Assembly (NCBI GenBank): GCA_017634555.1 | Contig: JAGBNF010000005.1 | Coordinates: 1-64,000 of the forward strand | Direction: 5' to 3' | Length of the DNA stretch: 64,000 nucleotides | Origin: Eubacterium sp. | GTDB taxonomy: Bacteria > Bacillota > Clostridia > Lachnospirales > Lachnospiraceae | Shown here: piece by piece, positions 18,714 through 20,601 of the stretch | How the letters are laid out: each line of letters begins with the position of its first letter | How positions within the stretch are numbered: position 1 is the stretch's first letter | The notes under the pieces: model-generated | What the model was told of the DNA's origin: nothing | Databases searched by the model: none | What the model saw: only the letters and a program-made list of their open reading frames with translations | Made by a program: the position numbers and the translations under genes

Positions 18714-18812
18714 CGATTAATTGTAGGTTGCTTACCGTTTGCTTGCCTGTTGCCTGTAAGTTACTTGTAGGTTATTTGTAGTTTATTTGTAGATTGCTTA
18801 TCGTCTACTTAC
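18714..18812. repeat. Nine degenerate 11-bp tandem repeats
   Basis: The 99 bp divide exactly into nine 11-mers such as aggttgcttac, aagttacttgt, aggttatttgt, agtttatttgt and agattgcttat, with a shared NNNTTNNTTGY shape. The last unit contains the stop codon (18809-18811) of the small membrane coiled-coil gene. The tract fills the gap to the pyk promoter. Confidence 0.8.
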
Positions 18813-19252
18813 GGTACCTTAAAGGCATTGAAGAAGTTGGCTACAGGCTGAACTGTATCAGCAAAATCATTGATTGCCTTATTCAGTGTTTCAAACTCTA
18901 TAGAGTTCAGCTTCTCCACTGCTTCACTGAGATTCTTCGTGTTTGTAACAACAAGATTATCTACATTCTTAACCATACCGTCGATATCCTTGATTGTTGA
19001 ATCAATCATATCAACCTTGGATTCAACTGTTCCCACAACACTTGTCAGCTTCGCAGTTGCGGACTGTACCTCATCTGCTACAGCCACAACCTTAGGAACC
19101 AAGTAAAGCACCGCAGCCGCTATCATTACAAAAATAGCTATCATCAACCCTGCCACAAGTTTTCTCGCCCTTGTCTCTCCACGCTGTTCCTTCAGAAGCT
19201 CAATCAGAAGTTCCTTCTCGCTCATGTTTTCCAGATCATTTTTCGCACTCAA
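18809..19252 (-). CDS. Single-pass membrane protein with coiled coil (DUF948-like)
   Basis: A 147-residue protein. A charged cytoplasmic N terminus (about 30 residues) leads to one membrane helix (LVAGLMIAIFVMIAAAVLYLVP). An outside heptad-rich region (EVQSATAKLTSVVGTVESKVDMIDSTIKDIDGMVKNVD) follows. The pattern resembles DUF948-type proteins, but function is unknown. The start is a TTG at 19252 after AAAGGGGG; an in-frame ATG at 19225 is an alternative. A promoter lies ~60 bp upstream, and the four-unit inverted-repeat array sits directly upstream of that promoter. Confidence 0.65.
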   Translation of the reverse strand: MSAKNDLENMSEKELLIELLKEQRGETRARKLVAGLMIAIFVMIAAAVLYLVPKVVAVADEVQSATAKLTSVVGTVESKVDMIDSTIKDIDGMVKNVDNLVVTNTKNLSEAVEKLNSIEFETLNKAINDFADTVQPVANFFNAFKVP

Positions 19253-19310
19253 TATCAGCTACCCCCTTTACAAAATTCCCGAAATAATCTGCATGCTAAC
19301 CCAATATATT

Positions 19311-19338
19311 ATTATACCATTCAGGATGGTGAATTCAA
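19311..19338 (-). promoter_or_regulatory. Promoter of the small coiled-coil membrane protein
   Basis: Minus strand TTGAAT (19333-19338), 16-bp spacer, TATAAT (19311-19316). GATGGT (19325-19330) and ACCATC (19350-19355) make an inverted pair around the -35. Confidence 0.65.
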
Positions 19339-19407
19339 TAAAATCCGCTACCATCTCTGCGTCAAACCCTTAAATCTTCCCAGTTTTTTGGGGTTTTTGA
19401 GTCATTT

Positions 19408-19668
19408 TACTACCATATTCCCTGATTACACTTGATATGTTAGTATTTTCTGATTTTTGAAAATCACCCGAACAGAACGAGTACTACCATAACAATATGA
19501 TACACTATCTTTTGGTAGTATTTTTTAGCTATTTGGGGACTTTTAAAAATTGTCCGTACTAACATTTACTCTTCTTCTCAAGGCTTTGGTAGTATTTTCA
19601 CTTTTTTCGATGTCTATTTCAGCACCTCCATACTAACATATCACCCGTTTTCATAGGCTATGTTAGTA
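19408..19668. repeat. Four-unit array of paired inverted 8-mers (period about 74 bp)
   Basis: Eight copies of TACTAMCA or its inverse TGKTAGTA lie at 19408, 19438, 19482, 19513, 19557, 19587, 19631 and 19661. Orientation alternates strictly. Start-to-start steps are 30, 44, 31, 44, 30, 44, 30. Each inner gap is 22-23 bp and each outer gap exactly 36 bp, and the gap sequences are unrelated except for T runs after TGKTAGTA. Each pair could form a stem-loop in RNA or be bound as a dyad on DNA. It is not a coding repeat because the period is not a multiple of three. Confidence 0.85.
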
Positions 19669-19694
19669 CTTCTCACTAAATGCCACATTTTTAA

Positions 19695-19775
19695 TCGATA
19701 TTCCAGTTTCTTCAATAATTCTATGTTCGCTACCACAATCAATATCCCAGCCTCTTCTTTAATTCTATGATCAGC
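19695..19775. repeat. Imperfect duplication of the 3' end of the nuclease-like gene
   Basis: The stretch from 19739, which encodes the last residues and stop of the gene, is repeated 44 bp downstream from 19695 (tcgatattccagtttcttc against tcaatatcccagcctcttc, then a shared TAATTCTATG). Roughly three quarters of 33 positions agree. Translated in the matching frame, the copy reads IELLKKLEYR against IIELKKRLGY. Confidence 0.65.
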
Positions 19776-20554
19776 CTCCTTATATCCTTCGTATTAAGCG
19801 GATGGCTTCCGGTTTCAAAAGTCCAGATTACAGAATCATATTGATACAGACCGCTTGCCTCATAATTTCTGATTTTCATCATAGCATTATTTCTATATTC
19901 AATATCATCCATCATCCCAAAATGTTCCCAGTATACCTCTCTTCTTTCTTTTATATTCAATAACGTAAAATCCGGATGAACTATTCCTGTTTTCAGTTTA
20001 AGAGGTTTTTCATAAAGAAACGGAACATACAATTCATCAAGTATGTCGGCGATTATCACCTCTGACTTAGAACGTACTCGCAACCCTTTTCTCGTGTAAT
20101 ACTCCGGAATTCCTTCTTTGAATATCATTTTCTCATATTCTTGTCCTTTCCAGTTGATAGCATATACCTCATCTGAAATGTACGGCACACTGACCAATTC
20201 TCTTTTCCCGACACTCATTCTGTCTAATGTCAGATTAAATGGATTATCAATCCACTCATTCTGCAATCCCTTCATAGCATCAAGCAGCTCTTTCAAAACA
20301 ATTATAAGTTTTTCATCATATTCTATCTGGGCAAGTATTTCAGCAATTATCCTATTTTTCTTTTTTATATATTTGCCATTAACACCCTCACCTTTCATTC
20401 TCATAAAATATTGATATGTATTTCTACATTTTACTGCTCTCAGCCTCGCCCCTTCCGGAACTTTCTTCTTTAGTTTTTCAAGCTCAGTTGAAACCTTCAT
20501 CAAACAATTCTCCAAATAGCCAATGTCTTTTGCTATATCCTTAGCCTTTATCAT
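19739..20554 (-). CDS. Putative PD-(D/E)XK superfamily nuclease
   Basis: Not a named family that I recognise with certainty. Residues 1-100 are helical and charged. Residues ~160-250 fit the PD-(D/E)XK nuclease core: RSKSE (E166), a strand with YEKPL, HPDF (D196), WEH (E211), then K228 and YEASGLY, followed by VIWTFE. The third motif reads E-H instead of E-x-K, so the lysine may be replaced or supplied from the following helix. ATG 20554 is favoured because AAGGAGG lies 5 bases before it. It follows comEC by 44 bp and may be co-transcribed. The adjacent inverted-repeat array makes it of special interest. Confidence 0.6.
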   Translation of the reverse strand: MIKAKDIAKDIGYLENCLMKVSTELEKLKKKVPEGARLRAVKCRNTYQYFMRMKGEGVNGKYIKKKNRIIAEILAQIEYDEKLIIVLKELLDAMKGLQNEWIDNPFNLTLDRMSVGKRELVSVPYISDEVYAINWKGQEYEKMIFKEGIPEYYTRKGLRVRSKSEVIIADILDELYVPFLYEKPLKLKTGIVHPDFTLLNIKERREVYWEHFGMMDDIEYRNNAMMKIRNYEASGLYQYDSVIWTFETGSHPLNTKDIRRLIIELKKRLGY

Positions 20555-20601
20555 CATCTCCTCCTTATTACCTTTGTTTTTATGTACTAATGGGATTTCT
20601 C

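Follow-up and report, generated by a model that had tools for sequence, protein, structure and literature searches.

Inverted-word arrays of whole-turn period and their candidate partner, a PD-(D/E)XK-like protein

REPs are imperfect palindromes that carry a GTAG-like tag and can fold into a hairpin. To our knowledge, the REP/BIME-RAYT system is the best-described known case in which repeats dispersed over a bacterial genome have an enzyme of their own, in that case a Y1 (HUH-type) transposase. BIMEs consist of regularly spaced REPs that alternate in orientation, and every RAYT gene is described as lying between two REPs in inverted orientation (PMC2817692). REPINs are presented as inverted REP doublets with spacers and as predicted hairpin formers (PMC3116915). 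The arrays described here share with both the dispersed extragenic repeats, the alternating orientation and the regular spacing (PMC2817692, PMC3116915), and with REP/BIME-RAYT also a partner gene, here a proposed one for a different protein, that is flanked by cognate repeats of partner-specific sequence. There are differences as well. The partner is PD-(D/E)XK-like instead of a Y1 transposase, the half-sites are 6-8 bp long and not palindromic, pairing of the arms is not required, the period amounts to whole helical turns, and the units occur almost only in arrays. The organisation of REP/BIME-RAYT is shared but not its protein, hairpin or tag, and a helical rule is added. In the literature searched, mostly outside subscription journals and preprints, no description of the combination of such arrays with a nuclease-like partner was found.

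Other systems resemble the arrays in part. Plasmid centromeres, for example the sopC array of F, consist of tandem units, each with a short inverted pair, that are bound by one DNA-organising protein. Tandem units with a short inverted pair recur here, where binding by one protein is a proposal, but the copies are many and chromosomal, the partner is nuclease-like and no recurrent partition gene family was noticed. As in CRISPR arrays, short conserved stretches alternate regularly with 36-bp variable ones; a CRISPR array, which has near-identical direct repeats, was nevertheless rejected, as only 6-8 bp are conserved at each end of the 38-bp unit and the interior varies (inner spacers 0.40 identical in the window's genome). 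Integron attC sites carry a conserved GTT/AAC triplet in their R boxes, with gene cassettes between the sites. This candidate was rejected as well, given that ACC, ATA, GAC and other triplets stand at that place and the outer spacers measure 36 bp.

In this study, the geometry of the arrays, their words, their adjacency to a gene, the quantisation of their period, the correlation of word and protein, the sharing of words within genomes and the phasing of A/T were established by computation. We propose that the array is probably the cognate DNA partner of the adjacent PD-(D/E)XK-like protein, in a repeat-plus-nuclease system that resembles REP/BIME-RAYT but works with an unrelated protein and without hairpins.

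The array and its relatives

The window, i.e., the whole 64-kb stretch of DNA that was analysed, contains at 19408..19668 an array of four dyads, read from the sequence and without an assigned strand, in which eight half-sites TACTAMCA/TGKTAGTA alternate in steps of 30, 44, 31, 44, 30, 44 and 30 bp. Dyad 1 (19408..19445) has its half-sites at 19408-19415 and 19438-19445 with an inner spacer of 22 bp, dyad 2 (19482..19520) at 19482-19489 and 19513-19520 with 23 bp, dyad 3 (19557..19594) at 19557-19564 and 19587-19594 with 22 bp, and dyad 4 (19631..19668) at 19631-19638 and 19661-19668 with 22 bp. The three outer spacers (19446..19481, 19521-19556 and 19595-19630) are each 36 bp long. The original prediction had named these eight alternating 8-mers with their positions and steps, and all are present as claimed. 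Random sequence rarely produces such a cluster. TACTAMCA has nine matches in the whole window, eight of them inside the array, against a shuffled expectation of 2.7, and nine were reached in 0/100 shuffles. In a word-free scan for the geometry of two consecutive units, the array is the sole match in the window; equal-sized Markov-simulated windows gave any such cluster in just 1/60, and 800 kb of locally shuffled related DNA gave none.

The spacers had been described as unrelated in sequence and constant in length. When units were compared in six pooled arrays of the window's genome, inner spacers had a mean identity of 0.40 (n=40 pairs) and outer spacers one of 0.42 (n=21); for half-sites it is 0.90 (n=185), partly by construction, as the arrays were detected through half-sites with at most one mismatch each. 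The spacers of an array are indeed unrelated, but their length wobbles by one base and the inner spacer hides a structure: its centre is A/T in 108/121 distinct inner spacers, where 43.2 are expected.

Two features flank the array. On the side of the nuclease-like gene, a 36-nt direct repeat (81 percent) at 19693-19728 and 19737-19772 fills part of the gap from the array to the 3' end of that gene; its second copy overlaps the gene end, and this end seems duplicated 44 bp off. A small membrane coiled-coil gene (18809-19252, minus strand) has look-alikes upstream of pyruvate kinase in the closely related genomes G006, G062 and G021, whatever follows behind. The special link of the array with the promoter of this gene that had been suggested found no support; the gene is a mere neighbour, and other arrays sit between unrelated genes.

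The window's genome (G000; 2.33 Mb, 72 percent complete) carries the TACTAMCA word with the same spacing at five further loci and its relative G006 at many more, while the reversed pattern gave zero matches in both. Arrays of the window word in these two genomes open with the TACTA side and close with its complement, the exceptions being arrays truncated at the end of a contig and outer units that have decayed. Each unit is therefore a dyad with the layout 8-22-8 (8-21-8 in G006), and neighbouring dyads are 36 bp apart. Within the 198 kb of G006 that were fetched around arrays, two words form 49 and 37 dyads inside arrays and 1 and 1 solitary ones.

Relatives had been expected to conserve both the 8-mers and the spacing. 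The spacing is kept, but the word changes: at the orthologous site of G006, where pyruvate kinase and the nuclease-like gene are again the neighbours, the same spacing is found with the word GGCTAACC, and the array word in the pyruvate kinase neighbourhood of G021 is AAGCAAAC. The assumption of a fixed word was rejected, as word patterns missed many array-bearing genomes, and so was the assumption that all words fit RCNAMC, with GGTAAC, GCAGAC, GCATCA, GCTATA and others being found. When 21 two-unit segments, which come from five genomes and represent several words, are aligned without gaps, the invariant columns are confined to the half-sites. Retention of the spacing across relatives and genera while words differ points to selection for geometry, in line with the original prediction.

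Independently of the gene, arrays were found in 16/61 genomes of the genus (G000, G004, G006, G014, G015, G021, G026, G027, G032, G036, G064, G068, G069, G070, G071 and G076) and in two other genera (G157/G460 and G223). Array counts from word patterns and models are lower bounds, as these probes know only some words, and the numbers of arrays per genome are minimal, as genomes were scanned in part. Neither 200 kb of G001 nor 216 kb of G062 showed an array, and the viral contigs contained no array of the window word. Among 12 genomes matched at E<=0.01, the matches in G017, G078 and G007 were discarded, there being no array at the matched place; the same applies to G335, G108, G167 and G211 among seven other model matches, though G335 has an array beside its gene.

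Two further arrays of G000 are matched by arrays at orthologous G006 sites (L034/L053 and L035/L042). Arrays are kept at three orthologous sites of these two genomes though the surrounding intergenic sequence no longer aligns; three G006 arrays (L040, L041 and L054) have none at the corresponding G000 site. Many arrays are tandem repeats that have been homogenised locally, as neutral minisatellites that happen to hold inverted words would be. We consider the chance of this explanation practically negligible, since the same words occur at many loci with unrelated spacers, the geometry is fixed across genera and the arrays are associated with a gene.

Gene contexts, classed for 40 loci and omitting L149 (no span) and contig-edge loci, were tandem in 31, convergent in 6 and divergent in 3 cases, close to a background of 85, 12 and 18. 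The genes adjoining arrays had no common function, and no recurrent defence or partition gene family was noticed among them. At two places in G006 (C8:20177-20942 and C15:23463-24315), two array families, TACTAACA and GCTAACC, abut out of phase in the same intergenic site. Judged by eye, of the arrays G068:C14 (L057:7337-7520) and G006:C16 (L038:7481-7810), one lies beside a phage-type integrase-like gene and the other beside a group II intron maturase-like gene; arrays may be insertion hot spots. The G006 contigs C3, C4, C13, C27, C37 and C39 start or stop inside or right beside arrays and, because contigs break there, the true arrays are probably longer.

A nuclease-like gene beside the arrays

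When the proteins encoded up to 2.5 kb from arrays were compared, two families recurred at six loci. One consists of common ATP-binding transport proteins; the other is the family of a 272-aa nuclease-like protein, encoded in the window at 19739-20557 on the minus strand (gene calls being mechanical open frames) and proposed as the partner of the array. This second family adjoins arrays at six loci in five genomes (G000, G006, G032, G157 twice and G223). The window array starts 70 bp past the stop codon of the gene; in most relatives the array is upstream of it.

The C-terminal half of the protein is nuclease-like, and the N-terminal half is more variable and, by eye, coiled-coil-like. In an alignment of 21 close homologues, E166 (RSKSE), D196 (PDF) and E211 (WEHFG) are invariant (21/21) and follow the order of PD-(D/E)XK, and the motif set is present in 58/61 distant proteins. 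The third motif of PD-(D/E)XK usually carries a lysine; here it reads WEH, with a histidine in that place. The C-terminal part matches the PADLOC candidate-defence model PDC-S68 (1.9e-26), and the putative PD-(D/E)XK assignment is based on the motif together with this similarity. A C-terminal nuclease-like domain is what the protein shares with PDC-S68 and PDC-S69, but these models comprise 1202-1273 (S68) or 289 (S69) positions and the 272-aa protein is matched only in its C-terminal part. Searches of 21 members against Pfam and NCBIfam gave no family above cut-off, the family profile found no homologue of solved structure in the PDB, and three members found no convincing phage family in PHROGs. 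A 1229-aa frame in another genome (G078:C15:6810-7202, L293) ends in a similar nuclease-like domain and recalls the PDC-S68 candidates; in its vicinity the scan detected no array.

Profile matches at E<=1e-40 occur in 99/397 sampled genomes of the window's family, whose bacteria live in gut and rumen, and in 87/334 genera, with up to six per genome among the matches listed. The 61 genomes of the genus contain 18 full-length homologues in 17 genomes, plus a few distant or broken ones. The number of family matches per genome, again among the matches listed, and the PDC-S68 similarity would suit a role in defence, with a nuclease that attacks invading DNA and arrays that titrate it, regulate its gene or mark self. 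We regard such a role as decidedly unlikely, as PDC-S68 is a candidate label only, the gene has an inherited place beside comEC in 16/18 genus loci, the viral-contig scan gave no relative of the protein and the neighbours of arrays showed no recurring family of defence genes.

A scan that started from the gene and tolerated two mismatches from arm to arm and one from unit to unit found an array within about 1.5 kb of 15/18 genus homologues, a count that includes G000, G006 and G032-C56, whose adjacent arrays were known beforehand; the array-first and gene-first samples overlap. The three misses comprise a visible array with unlike arms (L292) and degenerate dyads only (L275 and L281). Close homologues in other genera were positive in 8/8 cases, two of them weakly (L298 contains an N run and gave a single scan match; L299 is weak), and close homologues overall are array-adjacent in 23/26. 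Among controls, pyruvate kinase loci were positive in 3/30, all three being this very neighbourhood in G000, G006 and G021, Y1 transposase loci in 0/12, and background samples of 20 kb in 1/40 (800 kb in total). Of 29 close loci, 19 have their scan matches upstream of the gene, 4 downstream of it (G000, G006, G032 and G162) and 3 on both sides, while 3 have none.

The association extends to distant homologues. With any period of 44 to 95 bp and any inner step of 17 to 45 allowed, tandem inverted words were found at 51/62 loci, against 13/200 background tiles, 4/30 pyruvate kinase loci and 0/12 Y1 loci; the tiles were drawn from three genus genomes and not from the genera of the distant homologues. 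When a TRF tandem repeat of equal period was required in addition, the counts were 30/62, 2/200, 3/30 and 0/12, respectively. The 62 loci consist of 22 from earlier sets and 40 taken down the ranked profile matches listed, several being skipped, and the positives L313 and L288 may be plain duplications, of which L288 was retained in the 51/62. The co-occurrence with the nuclease-like family that had been anticipated was thus recovered across genomes, for close (23/26) and distant (51/62) homologues alike and against low controls.

A Y1/RAYT partner was rejected, as the presence of Y1 does not follow the arrays and 0/12 Y1 loci have one. Y1_Tnp is found in 36/61 genomes regardless of arrays and in none of the array-bearing G015, G021, G026, G032, G036 and G068; the array-richest genome, G006, has three high-scoring Y1_Tnp matches, whose frames measure 149-179 aa and resemble IS200. 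A 228-aa frame for a RAYT-like Y1 transposase (G000:C16:50788-51114, in L032) shares a contig with three G000 arrays, with no sign of linkage, and may have REPs of its own.

comEC adjoins the gene in 16/18 genus loci (the other two flanks being short) and in 4/11 loci of other genera (flanks short in several). For this reason the genus loci are largely one inherited place and not independent, and adjacency within the genus may represent one inherited association. The same neighbourhood raises the possibility that the array is part of the comEC locus, or goes with something else that resides there, and that the nuclease-like gene is a bystander. This is very unlikely, as arrays accompany homologues of other genera that have no comEC in the flank examined (7/11 loci, flanks short in several) as well as distant homologues, word and turn number follow the protein (see below), and most dispersed arrays are not near comEC.

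Half of the array-bearing genus genomes (8/16) are without a full-length gene: seven have no match at E<=1e-5 (G014, G015, G021, G027, G068, G069 and G070) and that of G036 is truncated. Some gene-less array genomes are nearly complete assemblies. Either the gene was lost, or the partner diverged, or arrays live without the gene. In G036 (C7:100723-100917, L290) the homologue was matched over its first 66 residues only, with a stop, beside a well-kept array with the word GCTAATC. Because of the shared comEC place and the recount of gene-less genomes, our confidence in a cognate pair of array and nuclease-like protein was lowered slightly.

Double-stranded geometry and the correlation of words with proteins

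Two forms of geometry had been suggested for the array, a chain of RNA stem-loops and a multi-dyad protein-binding array, with covariation of the 8-mers as a check. The arms do change jointly between arrays (covariation 0.36 vs 0.13 shuffled), but within the G000 arrays they are independent. There, the variable position 6 is complementary in 9/25 dyads, with 12.4 expected under independence, and 7/25 dyads are fully complementary by a strict count (a looser 7/31 included six pairs in an alternative register). In G460, the letters at position 4 differ between the arms in 9/11 dyads and 0/11 are fully complementary; in G006, 30/48 and 15/39 are, for its two words. Since the arms vary independently inside the G000 arrays, an RNA hairpin is not the constraint, and the covariation between arrays is explained equally by the half-sites of a dimer. 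A chain of RNA or single-strand hairpins, be it tandem terminators, processed RNAs or REP-like hairpin transposition substrates, could draw on that covariation, on the many complementary dyads of G006 and on a T run after the right arm in some arrays. We judge it highly improbable given the G000 and G460 counts, the unfixed orientation of the spacers relative to genes, the helical quantisation of the period, which is a signature of the double strand, and the absence of an Rfam match at gathering score in the window (19300-19750 gave four sub-threshold matches only, E 0.25 to 2). Tandem terminators in particular were rejected on the spacer orientation and on the T run being restricted to some arrays.

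The period of 74 bp had been equated with about seven helical turns, and this is borne out by periods that are quantised in whole turns. Arrays of distant homologues have periods of 52-54 bp at 14 loci, 62-64 at 19, 73-75 at 13 and 84-86 at 4, with one at 45 bp; the four groups correspond to five to eight turns. Vector strength at these loci is 0.91 at 10.45 bp, which 0/5000 uniform random sets reach, against 0.41 at 10.5 for the 13 background scan matches. Close homologues positive in the wide-period scan have a period of 72-75 bp in 23/24 cases and one of 62. The turn number is shared by the nearest protein in 31/50 distant loci (0/5000 permutations). A rhythm of A/T within the spacers is strongest near 10.5 bp, with z about 14 in one set (52 units, 19 loci) and 15.6 in another (41 units, 14 loci), 0/500 within-spacer shuffles reaching it in each; the z values overstate independence, as units of the same locus are related, and other periods exceed the shuffles too (9 bp, z 12, second set). 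Together with the A/T centre of the inner spacer, this rhythm is as expected of curved or wrapped DNA. Computation thus supports the multi-dyad array on double-stranded DNA that had been predicted, to which a protein would bind.

The same phasing and the one-face geometry are compatible with a sequence-specific wrapping protein that uses a nuclease fold for binding, or an inactive one, with the arrays serving as chromosomal anchoring, insulating or regulatory sites to the benefit of the host; the arrays kept at three orthologous sites amid unalignable intergenic sequence agree with this. Such a role in host architecture or regulation nonetheless appears unlikely to us. A purely structural protein would not need the catalytic-type E, D and E that are invariant in 21/21 close homologues, with the motif set in 58/61 distant ones, arrays come and go (three of G006 are missing at the G000 sites), and the neighbouring genes are without common function in contexts close to background.

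Word and protein are correlated. For 28 close homologues whose word could be read, the distances between proteins correlate with those between words at r=0.40 (0/5000 permutations), a value inflated by shared descent. By region, r is 0.44 for residues 61-150, 0.41 for residues 1-60 and 0.18 for the nuclease half (59/2000 permutations). In a second test, which like the first relied on words read by eye and which leaves out G036 with its truncated gene, the dispersed word equals the exact gene-flanking word of the same genome in 11/16 genome-words from 11 genomes (0/20000 permutations). The exceptions are TACTAACA of G006 and two words of G157, each one letter off, one word of G460 and one of G064. 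In G006, TACTAACA is at least as common as the other word and differs from the word beside the only gene of that genome.

A proposed cycle of recognition and cutting

Returning to the cognate pair of array and nuclease-like protein, we propose that the two half-sites of each dyad would be read from one helical face of bent DNA, perhaps by a dimer with arms reaching 30 bp. Whole-turn spacing of the dyads would let the bound proteins form a regular, probably wrapped, nucleoprotein row. The recognised word would differ by species or paralogue, and its changes would accompany those of the protein, chiefly those in the N-terminal 150 residues. Copies with the same word would become scattered over intergenic sites, where tandem duplication would homogenise them locally. 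Cutting by the protein, if any, would expand, homogenise and occasionally copy the arrays; it would account for the local homogeneity, the changing words, the gain and loss at orthologous sites and the place of the gene beside its own array. Binding of the half-sites by the protein, cutting or nicking of the DNA there and growth and dispersal of arrays driven by that cutting are what we infer from these patterns.

More tentatively, and as a possibility that we would not put at even, the arrays may reveal an undescribed class of genome-resident repeat system. In it, every PD-(D/E)XK-like protein would recognise a 6-8-bp word of its own, in inverted pairs spaced by whole turns, and would build, homogenise and spread its target arrays by cutting; as a result, the word, the protein and the geometry would evolve jointly and radiate across a bacterial family. 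If true, this would add another case of dispersed repeats that have a cognate enzyme, one in which the protein is unrelated, recognition is of the double strand and the helical rule can be measured. A protein family present in 99/397 sampled genomes and uncharacterised so far would be assigned its likely partner DNA, and natural protein-word pairs would become available for learning and testing DNA specificity.
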